Shown here one piece after another: positions 5,965 to 56,027 of a DNA stretch of 64,000 nucleotides. Source of the stretch: Candidatus Promineifilum breve (lineage in GTDB: Bacteria; Chloroflexota; Anaerolineae; Promineifilales; Promineifilaceae); assembly GCF_900066015.1 (NCBI RefSeq), contig NZ_LN890655.1:1342726-1406725 (forward strand), read 5' to 3'. The first letter of the stretch is position 1. Each line of letters begins with the position of its first letter. The notes beneath the pieces were generated by a model that searched no databases, had not been told where the DNA came from, and saw only the letters and a list, made by a program, of their open reading frames with translations. Position numbers and translations under genes: made by a program.

Positions 5965-6060
5965 GTAGCGGGTGGCAAGTAGCGAGTGGCAGTTTCGTAG
6001 CCACCCGCCACCCGCCACCCGCCACCCGCCACCCGCCACCCGCCACCCGCCACTCGCCAC
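5965..6060. repeat. Heptad hairpin repeat (GTRGCRR / GCCACCC)
   Basis: Four 7-bp units of the type GTAGCGG/GTGGCAA are followed by a short loop and about eight inverted units, mostly GCCACCC. The unit length is exactly 7. It can fold into a strong hairpin between the GT2 gene and the TPR gene. Confidence 0.85.
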
Positions 6061-6134
6061 CCCCCCACCCTTAACCCACCCTGAGCACCTTTGCCGCCCT
6101 GGGGCGGTGTTGTTATGATGCGGGGTGAGCAACC

Positions 6135-7371: not shown

Positions 7372-7440
7372 CCCTCTCCTAACCTCTCCCACAGGGAGAG
7401 GAACCTGCACCCCTGCTCCCCCGCCCCCCTGCTCCCCAGC
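7372..7440. repeat. CCCTCTCC and octad GCCCCCCT repeat
   Basis: A short CCCTCTCC/GGGAGAGG palindrome is followed by about four 8-bp units of the type GCACCCCT/GCTCCCCC/GCCCCCCT. The octad type recurs inside the aconitase X gene at 19820-19910. Confidence 0.65.
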
Positions 7441-9780: not shown

Positions 9781-10155
9781 ATGCCACCAACCAACAAACC
9801 CCAAACCGATCCCACCATCCTCCAACACGCCCGCGCCAACCGCCACCTCCACACCCCAGCCGAAACCAAACTCTGGCGACTCCTCCGCAACCACAACCTC
9901 GATGGATACAAGTTTCGACGCCAACACCCAATCGGCCACTACATCGTCGATTTCTATTGCCACGAAACGAAGCTTGTGGTCGAGTTGGATGGCCGCTCGC
10001 ATGATGAGCAAATGGAATATGATGCCGAGCGGACCGCCTGGCTGGAAAGTCAGGGGTATCGGGTGATTCGCTTTGCCAATGAGCGGGTCATGCAGGATGT
10101 GGTGATGGTGGCTGAGGCGATTTTGGCGGCTTGTCGGGAAGAACCCTCTCCCTAA
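9781..10155 (+). CDS. DUF559 endonuclease-like protein
   Basis: A 124-residue DUF559 protein, a small family with the restriction-endonuclease-like fold also seen in Vsr mismatch endonucleases. Visible: AETKLWRLLRN near 28-38, KFRRQHPIGHYIVDFYC near 45-60 with the catalytic-type D, LVVELDGRSHDE (E-x-D core) near 65-76, and W-L-x-x-x-GYRVIRFAN near 90-103. Nuclease activity is predicted from the fold; the biological role of the family is unknown. It is enclosed by CCCTCTCC palindromes: the ATG follows one copy and the TAA stop lies inside the next. Start chosen as the only ATG before the domain. Confidence 0.85.
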   Translation: MPPTNKPQTDPTILQHARANRHLHTPAETKLWRLLRNHNLDGYKFRRQHPIGHYIVDFYCHETKLVVELDGRSHDEQMEYDAERTAWLESQGYRVIRFANERVMQDVVMVAEAILAACREEPSP

Positions 10156-10513
10156 CCCTCTCCCAGGGGGAGAGGGGACAAGAACGCCGCCTCTGGTTCC
10201 CTCTCCCTTTGGGAGAGGGTTAGGGAGAGGGTTCTTCCCATCAGCGATAACCCCGCCCATAATATGGAGAGGGGACAAGAATGCCCTCTCCCTAACCCTC
10301 TCCCAGGGGGAGAGGGGACAAGAACGCCGCCTCCGGTTCCCTCTCCCTTTGGGAGAGGGTTAGGGAGAGGGTTCTTCCCATCAGCAATAACCCCGCCCAT
10401 AATATGGAGAGGGGACAAGAATACCCTCTCCCTAACCCTCTCCCAGGGGGAGAGGGGACAAGAACGCCGCCTCTGGTTCCCTCTCCCTTTGGGAGAGGGT
10501 TAGGGAGAGGGTC
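10144..10513. repeat. 140-bp tandem repeat array (2.6 copies)
   Basis: Copies begin at 10144, 10284 and 10424 (partial), period exactly 140 bp, differing by only a few bases (for example CTCTGG/CTCCGG). Each unit holds the CCCTCTCC/GGGAGAGG palindromes and an ATAATATGGAGAGG segment. Open frames on both strands are products of the repeat, not genes. This fills the 376-bp gap between the DUF559 and LLM genes. Confidence 0.9.
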
Positions 10514-15931: not shown

Positions 15932-17191
15932 ATGAAAAAACTCAATCGCGGCGTCGCCGTCGTCGGCGCGGGGATGAGCCGGTTCGGCTCGTTCCCGGAG
16001 AAGTCCACGCGCGACCTGTTCGTCGAAGCCTACCGGGAAATGCGCACGGCCGTCGACAAGGATTTCGACCCGGCCGACATCGAGGCCGTCTACATCGGCA
16101 ACTACAGCAGTGACCTGTTCGAGGGGCAGGGCCACACCGCGCCGATCATGGCCGACTGGGTGGGGCTGGCCCCGCGCGCGGCCACACGCATCGAGGACGC
16201 CTGTGCCAGCAGCGGCGTCGCCCTGCGCCAGGGCATCCTGGCCGTGGCCTCCGGGGCCTATGACGTGGTGCTCGTCGGCGGCATCGAGAAGATGAGTAAC
16301 CTGCCCATCAGCGGCGTCACCGACGCGCTGGCGACGGCCGGCGACGTGCTGTTCGAGATACCGGCCGGCTTCACCTTTCCCGGCTTCTATGCCGCCATCG
16401 CCACGGCCTATATGCACCGCTATGGCGCGTCGGCCGATGCCCTGCTGCGGGTGGGCATCAAGAACCACGAGAACGGCAAACTGAACCCCAAGGCCCAGTT
16501 CCAGGCGCGCATCGCCGACCTGATGGCCGGGCGCATCGCCAAGGCCCAACAGAAGGGGCTGCCCGTGCCCAGTTGGCAGACGGAGATGGACTTCCTCCAC
16601 GACGATGGAGCCAACCCGTATATCGCCTGGCCGCTGCGCCTGTTCGACTGCTCGCCGGTGACCGACGGCGCGTCGGCCGTGTTGCTCGTCGGCGAGGAAT
16701 TGGCCCGCCGCTTCAGCGATGACCCGCTGTACGTCATCGGCAGTGGCCAGGCCAGCGACGCCGCCGCCCTCCACGACCGGGCCGAGATGACCACGCTGCG
16801 CGCCGCGCGCGTGGCCGCCCAACAGGCTTACGAGATGGCCGGCGTGACGCCCGCCGACGTGAAGATCGCCGAAGTCCACGACTGCTTCACCATCGCCGAG
16901 ATCGTCGCCACCGAGGATTTGGGCTTCTTCGCGCCGGGCACGGGCCACGAGGCGGCCGAAGAGGGCCTCACCGCCCGCCACGGCCCCAAGCCGATCAACA
17001 CCTCCGGCGGCCTCAAGTCGAAGGGCCATCCCGTCGGCGCGTCGGGCGCGGGCCAGGCCGTCGAAGTCTGGAAGCAGATGCGCGGCCAGGCCGGCGAGCG
17101 GCAGGTGGAGCGCGACGTCGATATCGCCCTGACCCACAACGTCGGCGGCACGGGCCAGACGGCGGTGGTGCATATTTTTGAGCGGCGTTGA
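15932..17191 (+). CDS. Thiolase-family acyltransferase (SCP-x type)
   Basis: A 419-residue thiolase-fold enzyme. Catalytic Cys near 90 lies in DACASSG; the HDCFTIAE motif near 315 and KGHPVGASG near 365 supply the other active-site His and Gly-rich loop. This order is that of the SCP-x/acetyl-CoA acetyltransferase branch found in fatty-acid, sterol or archaeal-mevalonate pathways, where it pairs with a DUF35 OB-fold protein, as here (next gene, 80 bp downstream). It would cleave or form a beta-ketoacyl-CoA. ATG with GAGGGGTG upstream. No HMG-CoA synthase is in the window, so the pathway is open. Confidence 0.9.
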   Translation: MKKLNRGVAVVGAGMSRFGSFPEKSTRDLFVEAYREMRTAVDKDFDPADIEAVYIGNYSSDLFEGQGHTAPIMADWVGLAPRAATRIEDACASSGVALRQGILAVASGAYDVVLVGGIEKMSNLPISGVTDALATAGDVLFEIPAGFTFPGFYAAIATAYMHRYGASADALLRVGIKNHENGKLNPKAQFQARIADLMAGRIAKAQQKGLPVPSWQTEMDFLHDDGANPYIAWPLRLFDCSPVTDGASAVLLVGEELARRFSDDPLYVIGSGQASDAAALHDRAEMTTLRAARVAAQQAYEMAGVTPADVKIAEVHDCFTIAEIVATEDLGFFAPGTGHEAAEEGLTARHGPKPINTSGGLKSKGHPVGASGAGQAVEVWKQMRGQAGERQVERDVDIALTHNVGGTGQTAVVHIFERR

Positions 17192-17210
17192 TAGGGTAGT
17201 GTGCCGCAAC

Positions 17211-17256
17211 CAGTGGCCAGTGGCCAGTGGTCAGTGGTCTGTGGTCAGTGGTCAGT
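17211..17256 (+). repeat. Tandem heptad CAGTGGY array
   Basis: About six and a half 7-bp units (CAGTGGC, CAGTGGT, CTGTGGT) in the 80-bp gap between the thiolase and OB-fold genes. There is no inverted arm at this locus. Confidence 0.85.
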
Positions 17257-17271
17257 AAAGAGGGTTAAAAC

Positions 17272-17712
17272 ATGGCGGAGCAAATCCAGGCAGCCGAACG
17301 GCCATTCACGGCGGCGGCGTTTCAGACGTATATGAACGAGGGGCGGCTGATGGGGTCGCGCAACAAGGCCACGGGCGCGGTGTTTGTGCCGCCGCGGCCG
17401 ATCGATCCGGCCACCGGCGGCGAGGAGATGGAGTGGATGGCGCTATCCGGCCGGGGGACGCTGGCCGCCTTCACCTCGGTCTACATCGGCACGTCGGCCA
17501 TGATCGAAGCCGGCTACGACCGCCACAAGCCCTACGTGGCCGGGATTGTGGAACTGGCGGAAGGGCCGCGCATCAGCGCCCAGATCACCGGCGTGGACGG
17601 CACGCAGCCCGATCTGGCCTGGATCGGCCGGCCGGTGCGGGCGTCGTTCATCGAGCGCGGCGAGGGGGAGAAGCGGCGGGCTTATTTGGCGTTTGAATTT
17701 GAAAGCGCCTAG
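17272..17712 (+). CDS. DUF35 OB-fold protein lacking zinc-ribbon Cys
   Basis: A 146-residue partner of the thiolase. DUF35 proteins have an N-terminal rubredoxin-like zinc ribbon and a C-terminal OB fold and hold thiolases and acyl-CoA handling enzymes together. The OB part is clear (GRGTLAAFTSVYIG and KPYVAGIVELAEGPRI). Where the zinc ribbon should have C-x2-C pairs, the sequence is VPPRPIDPATGG with no Cys at all, so zinc is not bound. The TAG stop lies in the CTAG target site of the insertion sequence and was kept by target duplication. ATG start after the heptad array. Confidence 0.82.
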   Translation: MAEQIQAAERPFTAAAFQTYMNEGRLMGSRNKATGAVFVPPRPIDPATGGEEMEWMALSGRGTLAAFTSVYIGTSAMIEAGYDRHKPYVAGIVELAEGPRISAQITGVDGTQPDLAWIGRPVRASFIERGEGEKRRAYLAFEFESA

Positions 17713-18567
17713 AGCCTGTTATGAACTATAGGACACCAGAGTAACGACGCGATGAAGCATCAGGATAACAAAGGCCAGGTAATGCAGACCAGCCAGCGTA
17801 TCAGGCAGTCGTTCGTAGTCTCGGGCCAGACGACGGAAGCGAGCCGCCCAGCCGAAACTGCGTTCGACCACCCAGCGGCGCGGCAGCAGGACGAAGCCTT
17901 TCTTGGCTTCCGGCAGCTTAACGACCTCCAGGCGAATACCGTGGGCCAGGGCCACCTCAGCCGGCTCGTCACCGGTGTAACCCTGGTCGACAAAGACAAG
18001 CTCAACGGACTCCTCGGTGATAGCCTGAATCTGCTGTGCCAGTTGACCGACCTGGTCGCGGTCTTGTTGGTTGGCCGGGGTGACGTGCAAGGTCAACAGG
18101 TGTCCGAGCGTGTCCACCGCCATGTGAACCTTGCTGCCCTTGCGCCGTTTGGCCCCATCATAGCCGGCGCGTGCGCCACTCTCCGGCGTCGATTGCAACG
18201 TCCGACTATCCATAATCGCCGCCGTCGGCTGGCTCTTCCGGCCATCGGCCAGTCGCAGCAAAGCCCGCAGGTCATGGGCCATGCTCTCGAATACCCCGGC
18301 CTTCAACCAGCGCTGCGTTTGCTGGTAGACCACGGCCCACGGCGGCAGGTCGTTGGGCATCATGCGCCACGGCGCGCCGGCCCGGATGAGCCAACGCAGC
18401 CCATTGAAGACTTCCCGCAGGGCGTACTCGCGTTGCGGCGCGTCTTCGGTCATCAATGTCAGATACCCCACGGTAAAAGCCCACTCTTCATCGCTGACAT
18501 CACTGGGATATGCTTTCCGTGCCATTCGCCCAGCATATCCCAGCCTTACAAAAGTTCATAACAGGCT
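17713..18567. mobile_element. IS5-family insertion sequence, complete
   Basis: An 855-bp element with perfect 15-bp terminal inverted repeats (AGCCTGTTATGAACT at 17713-17727 and its complement at 18553-18567). A 4-bp CTAG duplication flanks it (17709-17712 and 18568-18571), matching the YTAR targets of IS5-type elements. One intact transposase gene fills it on the minus strand. Both ends and the frame are intact, so it looks recent and potentially active. Confidence 0.95.
17719..18525 (-). CDS. IS5-family DDE transposase
   Basis: A 268-residue single-frame transposase. The N-terminal DUF4096-type domain is at 1-85 (SDEEWAFTVGYL...LREVFNGLRWLIRAGAPWRMMP). DDE acidic residues sit in IMDSRTLQST (about 105), VFVDQGYTGD (about 190) and the C-terminal RRWVVERSFGW (E about 220). 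Length and the W-VERSFGW signature fit the IS1031/IS427 branch of IS5. Cut-and-paste of the flanking element is the expected role. ATG start, 42 bp inside the right end. Confidence 0.95.
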   Translation of the reverse strand: MARKAYPSDVSDEEWAFTVGYLTLMTEDAPQREYALREVFNGLRWLIRAGAPWRMMPNDLPPWAVVYQQTQRWLKAGVFESMAHDLRALLRLADGRKSQPTAAIMDSRTLQSTPESGARAGYDGAKRRKGSKVHMAVDTLGHLLTLHVTPANQQDRDQVGQLAQQIQAITEESVELVFVDQGYTGDEPAEVALAHGIRLEVVKLPEAKKGFVLLPRRWVVERSFGWAARFRRLARDYERLPDTLAGLHYLAFVILMLHRVVTLVSYSS

Positions 18568-19344: not shown

Positions 19345-21171
19345 CTAATACTCTCGTTCAGATAGTTGAACCTCTCCATCCGTGACAATAATATTCATCC
19401 CATTCCCAACACGAGCATAGGTATCGGCCGCCAACACAATAACCGGCGGCGCAACCCCATACATCTCCCGCGCCACGGCCGACCCCAACGCCAATATGGC
19501 GTCCGGCTCGGCCAGCAGGATGGCCGCCGGGGCCTTGCCCAGCCGCGCCGCCTCCAGCAGGATGCTACTGGCGCTGCTGCTGCCCTTGCCCACCGGCATG
19601 ACCAACACTTTGCCGGTCACGTTGGCCCCCCATTGCGGATGGCGCTGGTCGATGATGTCGCCCGTCGTTGGCTCCAGCCCGCCCCACAGGCTCAGCGGCG
19701 CGTCGAGCACCAGCGCGGGGCCGGTGGCATGACCAGACACGAGTGAGCGGGTGGCGAGTGGCGGGTGGCGAGTGGCGAGTTCGGAGCCGGTTTCCGATTG
19801 AACCACTGAATACGGCCCACTCTCCCCTGCCCCCCTGCCCCTCTGCTCCCCTGCCCCCCTGCCCCCCTGCTCCCCTGCTCCCTCACCCCCCTGCTCCCCT
19901 GCCCACAAAGAACCATCCCGCCACACCACCCCCGCCGCCCCCGACCGCACACACTCCTCCAGGCTGCCATAGACGACTTGCAAGCCGATGTTGCCGGGCG
20001 AATAGTGGGCGAATTTGCCGGAATTGGTCATCAGTACGCCGTCGCGGGCGCGCACGATGGGGGTGACGACGACGCAGGTATCGACGATGACCTGCGCCCC
20101 GGCCGCCCGCAGCCGCGCCAGCCAGCCGCGCTGCTGCAACGCCGCCAGCGCCAGCCGGTGGGTGCAGACAATGAACTCAACTTCCGGCCGCGGCGGGTAC
20201 TGCTCGATCAGCGGCAGCAGCCGGGCGAATTCATCCAGCGAGAAATGGGGGCTGCCCAACGCCACCACGTCGATCGGGCCGTCGGGCACGGTGGAGAGCA
20301 CGCCCAGCGTTGCCCGCAGATCGTCAAGGCTCACATCAATGATCGCTTCCGGGGCGCGCCCCTGAAACGCGGCATCGAGCGTCGGCGCTTCGGGCGTCAC
20401 GCCGGCGGCGTGGAACAACGCCACCCCGCCCGACGAGGCCGCCGCCGCGCCCAGCGCCTTGAGTTGATCCTCGGTCGTGTCCGGCCGCAGCCCTTGAATG
20501 ACCGGTATCTTCGTCCCCGTCCGCGCCCCCAGCCAATAGCCGAGCACCGGGAACAGGACGTCCTCGCCCAACAGGCGCTCAGGGATGTCGTGCAGGCGAA
20601 AGAGCAGTTGCCCGGCGCGGTTCTCGGCCCGGTGCAGGCCCACGTCCGGGGCGCGGCCGGTGATGGCGCAACAGATGTCGATGAAGTCGCCATAGCGGTT
20701 GGTGCGCGCCCCCAGCACGGAGTTGGCGAAGACGATCGCGTTGCTCTCGGCCCAGGCGATCTGCGCCCCCAGCGGCGGCCGGTGCAGGGCCTGATAGGGC
20801 GCGCAGGTGAACGTCGGCCGGCAGCCCATCGCCTCGTAGGCGCGCATCATGCGTGTCGCCCATTGGCCGACCTGCGCCGTGCCGCGAAACACCTCCGGGT
20901 GCAGCAGGTCCATCGCCCCCACGTTGAGCGTCGTGGGCACGGCCACCCGCCCCCCGCCGCCCGCCAGCCGCTCGGCGAACTCCAGCCCGGAGTAGCCATG
21001 ATAGAGGCAGCCGTCGATGTGGGCCGATTCGATGTCGAGCAGCCGTTCCGCGCCGTAGACGCCGGCCATCGTCACCAGAATGCGCATCGCCATCTGCGTC
21101 GCCGGCCCCATGTCGCCGGCCAGCATGGCCGCGTCGCGCTCGGTCAGTTGTAAGGTGGTTTGATTTGTCAT
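19345..21171 (-). CDS. Aconitase X (large+small domain fusion)
   Basis: A 608-residue AcnX. The catalytic large domain (1-415) begins LTERDAAMLAGDMGPA and has the conserved SAHIDGCLYHG, TCAPYQ, WAESNAIVFANSVLGARTNRYGD and TNSGKFAHY segments; the swivelling small domain (478-608) holds the PLSLWGGLEPTTGDIIDQ and MPVGKGSSSAS signatures. Characterised relatives dehydrate cis-3-hydroxy-L-proline (bacterial) or mevalonate 5-phosphate (archaeal); which applies here is not decided. The linker (about 418-477) is encoded by octad and heptad repeat DNA (AGEQGGRG repeats, then LATRHPP). Start ATG at 21171 overlaps the pentapeptide gene stop as ATGA, so translation is coupled. Confidence 0.9.
   Translation of the reverse strand: MTNQTTLQLTERDAAMLAGDMGPATQMAMRILVTMAGVYGAERLLDIESAHIDGCLYHGYSGLEFAERLAGGGGRVAVPTTLNVGAMDLLHPEVFRGTAQVGQWATRMMRAYEAMGCRPTFTCAPYQALHRPPLGAQIAWAESNAIVFANSVLGARTNRYGDFIDICCAITGRAPDVGLHRAENRAGQLLFRLHDIPERLLGEDVLFPVLGYWLGARTGTKIPVIQGLRPDTTEDQLKALGAAAASSGGVALFHAAGVTPEAPTLDAAFQGRAPEAIIDVSLDDLRATLGVLSTVPDGPIDVVALGSPHFSLDEFARLLPLIEQYPPRPEVEFIVCTHRLALAALQQRGWLARLRAAGAQVIVDTCVVVTPIVRARDGVLMTNSGKFAHYSPGNIGLQVVYGSLEECVRSGAAGVVWRDGSLWAGEQGGEGAGEQGGRGAGEQRGRGAGESGPYSVVQSETGSELATRHPPLATRSLVSGHATGPALVLDAPLSLWGGLEPTTGDIIDQRHPQWGANVTGKVLVMPVGKGSSSASSILLEAARLGKAPAAILLAEPDAILALGSAVAREMYGVAPPVIVLAADTYARVGNGMNIIVTDGEVQLSEREY
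19741..19910. repeat. Heptad and octad repeats inside aconitase X
   Basis: Heptads GAGTGGC/GGGTGGC at about 19749-19780 and octads GCCCCCCT/GCTCCCCT at about 19823-19910 lie in frame in the linker of the gene. They match the intergenic repeats at 5965, 32241, 55930 (heptads) and 7413 (octads). Confidence 0.88.
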
Positions 21172-32240: not shown

Positions 32241-32324
32241 GTAGCGGGTAGCGAGTGGCGAGTGGCGAGTCGCTCTGAACTCGCCACCCGCCACTCGCCA
32301 CCCGCCACCCGCCACTCGCCACTC
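32241..32324. repeat. Heptad hairpin repeat (GTGGCGA / GCCACTC)
   Basis: Four units GTAGCGG/GTGGCGA, a loop, and six inverted units GCCACCC/GCCACTC between metX and metW. Same unit family as 5965 and 55930. Confidence 0.9.
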
Positions 32325-32949: not shown

Positions 32950-33117
32950 GGCGGGATGGTATCCCGCCCCTCCCGGCCCGTTGTGGGTTGTGGGCCGGGA
33001 GGGGCGGGTTGCCAACCCGCCCTACATTTGCTTGGCGGCCGGGAGGGGGTGGGTTGCCAACCCGCCCTACATTTGCTTGGCGGCCGGGAAGGGGCGGGTT
33101 GCCAACCCGCCCTACAT
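32946..33117. repeat. 45-bp tandem repeat with GGGCGGGTTGCC palindrome
   Basis: The GTTGCCAACCC core recurs at 33008, 33053 and 33098, period exactly 45. Units contain GCCCTACATTTGCTTGG and GCGGCCGGGA spacers. A variant GGGCGGGATGGTATCCCGCCC precedes them. Fills the gap between the convergent metW and holin-like genes and could act as a bidirectional terminator, though no T-run is present. Confidence 0.88.
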
Positions 33118-44176: not shown

Positions 44177-44284
44177 CGCAAAGAGTAGCAGGTGGCGGGT
44201 GGCGGGTGGCAAGTGGCAAGTGGCGAGTTCAGTGCGACTTGCTACTCGCTACTCGCTACTCGCCACCCGTTGCGCCTTTGCGTT
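44175..44284. repeat. Heptad hairpin repeat between convergent genes
   Basis: AACGCAAAG / CTTTGCGTT outer arms, then GGGTGGC/AAGTGGC heptads and inverted CGCTACT/CGCCACC heptads. Both flanking genes end in TAA inside the outer arms (44174-44176 and 44283-44285), so the hairpin spans the whole gap and probably ends transcription from both sides. Confidence 0.9.
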
Positions 44285-55912: not shown

Positions 55913-55928
55913 GTCGAGCGCGGGAAAA

Positions 55929-56027
55929 GTAGCGGGTAGCGAGTAGCAAGTAGCGAGTGGCAGGTGGCGTGTTCGGAGCGACTTGCTACCCGCTACCCGC
56001 CACCCGCTACTCGCCACCCGCCACCCT
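55929..56027. repeat. Heptad hairpin repeat (GTAGCGA / GCTACCC)
   Basis: Six heptads GTAGCGG/GTAGCAA/GTGGCAG, loop around GTTCGGAGC, six inverted heptads GCTACCC/GCCACCC. Same unit family as 5965, 32241 and 44175. Lies between the aldo/keto reductase and phosphorylase genes. Confidence 0.9.

Follow-up and report, generated by a model that had tools for sequence, protein, structure and literature searches.

The window analysed here, 64,000 nucleotides of the Candidatus Promineifilum breve genome, carries on its minus strand a frame (19345-21171) that is open throughout, from its initial methionine to its stop, and forms a single gene of 608 codons. The frame is also called by a self-trained gene finder (score 216). 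Pfam assigns the 608-residue product to the aconitase X (AcnX) family, with PF04412 at residues 8-410 (457 bits) and PF01989 at residues 494-568 (83 bits), both above cut-off, so the repeats of this gene lie between its two domains. TRF detects an 8-bp array of 10 copies, which scores 131 as 24-bp units, and a 7-bp array of 5.7 copies. The open frame, TRF and Pfam bear out the original prediction of a fused AcnX joined by 8-bp and then 7-bp units. The repeat linker it described is present, but spans 19741-19902 (54 codons) and not 19741-19910 (about 60 residues).

19345-21171, minus strand: fused aconitase X gene (large domain, repeat linker, swivel); open frame, Pfam, gene finder, AlphaFold2
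19903-21171, minus strand: large domain (AcnX domains 1-3, PF04412), with conserved C-terminal ...WRDxxLW; Pfam, comparison with relatives
19741-19902, minus strand: linker of 54 codons, the former intergenic spacer; comparison with relatives, AlphaFold2
19822-19904, minus strand: octamer array (GCAGGGGA/GCAGGGGG in the sense direction), first base in the large domain's final Trp codon; TRF, anchored test
19803-19813, minus strand: spacer with degenerate CAGTATTCAGTAGGT-type unit (GTATTCAGTGG); CAG-unit score
19740-19780, minus strand: heptamer array (ACTCGCC/ACCCGCC in the sense direction); TRF
19345-19740, minus strand: swivel (domain 4, PF01989), encoded on its own in relatives beyond the genus; Pfam, comparison

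In gene order, the octamers of the linker precede a short spacer, in which a TTCAGTGG remnant survives, and the heptamers follow; the large domain's last Trp codon is 19903-19905. The arrays encode the peptides (W)AGEQGGEGAGEQGGRGAGEQRGRGAGE and ELATRHPPLATRS, with GAGESGPYSVVQSETGSELATR and HPPLATR as the expected tryptic products. A CAG-unit score as high as that of the spacer is found in 1 of 150 shuffles, and none of 150 reaches the heptamer score of the linker. None of the six frames of the octamer unit GCAGGGGA contains a stop codon, as can be read off its 24-nt cycle. The RNA fold of the linker is no more stable than that of shuffles (z -0.56), and we therefore claim no structural RNA role. 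Beside acnX, positions 15932-18525 of the window hold a thiolase-like gene, an adjacent small DUF35-sized ORF and, next to these, a transposase-like gene encoded on the opposite strand.

Predicted structure and AcnX class

The AlphaFold2 model of the 608-residue protein has a mean pLDDT of 85.6 and a pTM of 0.84. Residues 428-470 fall below a pLDDT of 50 and are flanked by two well-folded domains, and the linker is thus predicted to be a disordered tether. In Foldseek searches, the large domain hits 7CNP/7CNR (E down to 1e-41), and the hit of the swivel is the small subunit from Thermococcus. When aligned to 7cnp_A, the large domain retains the binding and cluster residues of AtAcnX (D53, N83, C123, E142, S143, N144, C366, K386 and Y390; residue list from PMC8184944), and the swivel Trp and general-base Ser are also conserved. 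The exceptions are Cys71 (Ser), Thr72 (Ser), Ile206 (Leu) and Cys510, which is absent as expected for Type-IIa. Only two cluster cysteines are therefore present, the first two of the Type-I trio Cys273, Cys508 and Cys510.

By its residues, the protein, a putative dehydratase of cis-3-hydroxy-L-proline (C3LHyp), best matches Type-IIa (C3LHyp dehydratase). Type-IIa enzymes have separate large and small chains, whereas all eight Promineifilum genomes encode a single open frame. The architecture is not that of Type-I either: the swivel aligns to AtAcnX 15-146 and the large domain to 167-569, which reverses the swivel-linker-large order and marks an independent fusion. A published artificial construct that joins Type-IIa subunits directly, with no linker, was active (PMC8184944), so being fused should in itself do no harm.

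Fused and split acnX among relatives

The large domain and swivel form one open frame in 8/8 genomes of Promineifilum, which are sludge bacteria. The nine linkers from these eight genomes (G005 contributes two variants) are 93-165 nt long, and every length is a multiple of three. Outside the genus, the halves are split in all 20 family genomes in which they share a contig, as well as in approximately 44 loci from Rhizobiales and others, including Actinobacteria, in line with the expectation that the AcnX parts are separate in many organisms. In these split family relatives, a stop separates the halves in 20/20 and the halves lie in different frames in 15/20. The large-subunit stop mostly falls 0-4 codons past a conserved Leu-Trp, while one split ORF (L151) extends about 20 codons further past it. 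The relatives are mostly metagenome assemblies (completeness 68-98%).

In the tree, the fused rows form one clade (support 95/99) with split outgroups, and the fused or split state changes once, compared with 8.9 times in shuffles. Since the fused clade has split outgroups, the fusion is derived and single, and one event on the Promineifilum stem suffices. In one tree row (L034, from G003), an N gap puts part of the large domain in the wrong frame, and the long branch of this row is to be ignored; the G003 linker (L017) is unaffected. The comparison with close relatives proposed earlier thus separates the genus from its family, as other family genomes lack the fusion but all eight congeners share it.

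A second AcnX paralog (~35% identical) is likewise fused, in the order large-swivel, in every family member that was examined (L002, L028-L032, L035-L038, L042 and L046). Its linkers hold species-specific repeats, such as CCGAAATC x3.6 in L029 and ATTGACA/ATTGGCA in L032, and in L029, L030 and L032, which represent several genera, the repeats joined a linker already present. In a Nitriliruptoraceae locus (L135), the AcnX swivel precedes the large domain at a short distance and shares its frame, which may reflect the opposite fusion or gene order.

Repeats across the window and genome

Both repeat types recur elsewhere in the window, as originally noted.

5965-6070, no strand assigned: heptamer arrays of the same family as in acnX (GTAGCGAGTGGCAA/GCCACCC); TRF
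7404-7437, no strand assigned: short octamer array (CCTGCTCC); TRF
32251-32324, no strand assigned: inverted heptamer-array pair (GCGAGTG ... CGCCACTCGCC); TRF
44183-44263, no strand assigned: inverted heptamer-array pair (GGTGGCG ... ACTCGCT); TRF
55928-56026, no strand assigned: inverted heptamer-array pair (AGTAGCG ... ACCCGCT); TRF

Larger tandem repeats occupy 10143-10512 (140-bp unit x2.6) and 32993-33117 (45-bp unit x2.8). Both octamers and heptamers are dispersed throughout the 5.03-Mb genome, where a 22-nt octamer pattern allowing up to two mismatches gives 429+362 = 791 matches (range 530-791). The same pattern read backwards gives none, placing the octamer count far from chance.

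We surveyed array positions in a 1.24-Mb sample of the genome, taken as regions, with genes called by a self-trained model. The octamer arrays comprise 22 intergenic, 5 edge and 14 internal ones, and with ~91% of the sequence coding, octamers are far commoner between genes than the intergenic share of the genome predicts. Of the 150 heptamer-class arrays, those of recurrent unit families are intergenic or at gene edges, and these intergenic-type families are nearly absent inside genes. In 49 cases, an array of either kind has a stop codon no more than 10 nt away, approximately twice the 23.0 +- 3.8 obtained when arrays are re-placed at random within the same gaps (0 of 2000 runs reach the observed value). 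Near start codons, the sample shows no excess (16 observed, 16.4 random). The linker DNA matches many other sites of the genome, among them composite octamer-spacer-heptamer units directly 3′ of stop codons (L047 and L050); that of L047 reads ...GGGGGGCTAG GGC GCAGGGGAGCAGG....

Neighbouring octamer arrays follow the order GCAGGGG...CCCCTGC in 10/10 cases of the 1.24-Mb sample and thus form hairpins, whereas the acnX array has no octamer return arm. With dispersed copies both between genes and in frame within them, and with this inverted-repeat anatomy genome-wide, the octamers resemble MITE/RPE-like elements, and the tandem arrays of ~7-bp units between genes resemble the STRR/heptamer type. 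Arrays of both kinds vary in length and composition, and a fixed consensus of ~100-200 bp is not seen. The octamer pattern is almost absent outside Promineifilum, with array counts in fragmented genomes being lower bounds. The congener G003 has no octamer matches, and a 15-bp unit (CAGTATTCAGTAGGT) is amplified genome-wide instead (G003:C57:2499 and ~140 places), so sister species have different active repeat families.

Octamers in frame inside other genes

Octamer arrays lie in frame inside 11 genes of the 1.24-Mb sample. Besides AcnX, these encode two C-methyltransferases, three membrane proteins, a PaaB-domain protein, TrmH, adenine deaminase, MiaB and RecQ. In a MiaB-like methylthiotransferase (G000:C1:1317591-1319024; L229:17591-19024), a complete octamer hairpin is translated in frame between UPF0004 and radical SAM; four congeners lack it and G002 has a related stretch. 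A TrmH/SpoU rRNA methylase (G000:C1:1240841-1241740; L226:841-1740) carries in-frame octamers between its substrate-binding and catalytic domains that are absent in congeners. The octamers of adenine deaminase lie between its two Pfam domains, and those of RecQ between the dual-OB and helicase domains.

G000 C1:1509162-1512095, C1:1256347-1258194, C1:703078-705432 and C1:787088-789544: RecQ, adenine deaminase and membrane proteins with in-frame octamers in linkers or loops

In one gene of this last set, the insertion is an octamer plus heptamer. The MiaB, TrmH and RecQ insertions appear lineage-specific, as most congeners lack them. We considered these three genes as further repeat-made fusions and rejected all of them: the insertions in MiaB and TrmH entered existing linkers, and RecQ is joined to DuOB throughout the family even where octamers are lacking. 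A 187-residue protein with two PaaB-like halves (G000:C1:1067609-1068172; L217:7609-8172) has a linker of octamer plus CAG unit between them and could be another repeat-joined fusion or a duplication.

Origin of the fusion

The Promineifilum linkers share little sequence, even between close species, and the identical ancient linker that would have spoken against a repeat-made fusion is not seen. The octamer score of the linkers follows the genomic octamer count (Spearman 0.88, p 0.004). For the CAG unit, the corresponding correlation with genomic abundance is not significant (rho 0.40, p 0.33), and the CAG-unit-rich genome of G003 (140 matches) also has a CAG-rich linker. The linker diverged fast after fusion and, we infer, was overwritten by whichever repeat family was active. 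The comparisons support the acnX linker as a translated former spacer built of intergenic repeat types.

In a position-anchored test, the 21 nt directly downstream of the Leu-Trp codons were scored against the octamer consensus and compared with windows from the same locus. Eight of the nine Promineifilum linkers, from both subclades, fit the octamer, with equally good windows at frequencies of 0.0006-0.0037, and thus beat at least 99.6% of windows from their own locus. These include L009 (0.0007) and L017 (0.0031) of the second subclade, whose octamer-like starts are degenerate only; when their whole linkers are aligned to the octamer, 8-20 of 150 shuffles are as good, which is only suggestive. 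The fit is absent in L007 of G001 (0.08), and none of 15 split relatives fits the octamer at 0.05. In split sister genera, arrays of other kinds, particular to each, sit on or next to the large-subunit stop (TTGTGGAGATTGGAGATTGGAGATTAG in L155, and others in L149, L154 and L011).

These observations suggest a model for the fusion. Dispersed octamer and heptamer elements, often inverted hairpin pairs, tend to settle at the stop codons of genes. The stop-free octamer (GCAGGGGA) may have landed on the large-subunit stop and turned the spacer into coding sequence, giving one chain in which a linker predicted to be disordered tethers the swivel. The linker would later have been overwritten repeatedly by the repeat family active in each lineage, with changes in length retained only if in frame. 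We give a probability of roughly 0.6 to a repeat at the large-subunit stop as the cause of the fusion. The suggestion that a repeat removed the stop between the halves therefore stands in part: the fusion is single and derived, with octamer-like DNA at the former stop in both subclades, but L007 is fused without recognisable repeats and there is no before/after pair inside the genus, as every close relative is fused. No genome captures an intermediate, for example one inside the genus with the octamer inserted and the stop intact. As the octamer hardly occurs beyond Promineifilum, the case for it on the stem depends on the two degenerate matches of the second subclade.

A point change or small deletion may instead have removed the stop on the genus stem, leaving a plain linker to which repeats were added later and independently by lineage, since a disordered linker tolerates anything in frame. 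The fused paralog, which also counts against a repeat-caused fusion, illustrates this course, as repeats entered its existing linker in several genera and can thus be later decoration. The late additions to existing linkers in MiaB, TrmH and RecQ, the short linkers of L007 and L009 without clear arrays, and the tracking of current genomic repeat abundance by linker content point the same way. However, both subclades (the second through L009 and L017) have octamer-like DNA precisely where the stop used to lie, which would then require two hits at one position, and split sister genera already carry arrays on the large-subunit stop. We regard this order of events as a serious but somewhat doubtful alternative.

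Selection for a specific linker function, such as setting the length of the tether or binding a partner, with similar repeats recruited to it, would account for the moderate, in-frame lengths (93-165 nt) and for the AGE-type start retained in several species. Yet sequence and repeat family differ among close species, identical peptides occur in unrelated proteins, the linker is predicted to be disordered and a linker-less fusion works in a relative (PMC8184944), making such selection very improbable. Least credible of all is a sequencing or assembly error masking a stop or frameshift between two genes. The long C/G runs of the array are error-prone and some relatives are draft assemblies, but the eight congeners are open in the same frame in separate assemblies with different linkers, and split family relatives keep a stop between the halves (20/20) and mostly different frames (15/20). 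The error raised at the outset, which would restore two frames, is thus not seen.

The stop-free octamer hairpin of Promineifilum might tentatively be viewed as a general maker of disordered linkers, one that settles at stops, extends genes, enters dozens of genes between domains and has fused two subunit genes at least once, though its unit is not divisible by three. Gene fusions are usually seen long afterwards, with the joint erased, whereas the acnX joint is still legible through the octamer-like DNA at the old stop, the arrays of sister genera and the ongoing entry of repeats into the linkers of other genes. This legibility makes the idea that intergenic junk repeats become protein linkers directly testable. 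For annotation, AGEQGGRG or LATRHPP peptides in Promineifilum should be recognised as derived from repeat DNA. A literature search for Promineifilum/Promineofilum and repeats found no paper on octamer/heptamer linkers, and the combination of translated 7-8-bp units, a legible subunit-fusion joint and a reversed AcnX architecture is new.

Comparison with known systems

Cyanobacterial STRRs are abundant intergenic tandem arrays of ~7-bp units. The TAACTGA arrays of Beggiatoaceae are likewise abundant intergenic tandem heptamers, and intergenic heptamers occur in several phyla (PMC4679880). STRR and TAACTGA arrays differ from those of Promineifilum in unit sequence and phylum, and the Promineifilum arrays often form inverted pairs, favour stop codons and also lie within genes. 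The tandem repeats of Borgs evolve fast and create disordered protein regions, with unit lengths in ORFs divisible by three and virtually all repeats unique per genome (PMC9879509). In contrast, the Promineifilum units are 7 and 8 nt long and occur at hundreds of loci, and the reading frame is kept only by the insertion as a whole.

Rickettsia palindromic elements and other bacterial MITEs, as described in the excerpted text of PMC2229807, are dispersed hairpin repeats between genes that are also translated in frame inside conserved genes. There they are ~100-200 bp long with a fixed sequence, unlike the variable tandem arrays of 7-8-bp units in Promineifilum, and none of the cases in that excerpt joins two neighbouring subunit genes as in acnX.

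Type-IIa AcnX, like the Promineifilum protein, has only two cluster cysteines (PMC8184944), but it consists of two chains, where Promineifilum has one chain with a repeat-made linker. Type-I AcnX (LhpI; AtAcnX, PDB 7CNP) is a single chain that arose by fusing Type-IIa subunits (PMC8184944). It has three cluster cysteines and a linker of ~7 residues in the order swivel-linker-large (PMC8184944), whereas the Promineifilum protein has two cysteines and ~54 linker residues in the order large-linker-swivel, which makes it a fused AcnX of new architecture that inverts the known Type-I order.
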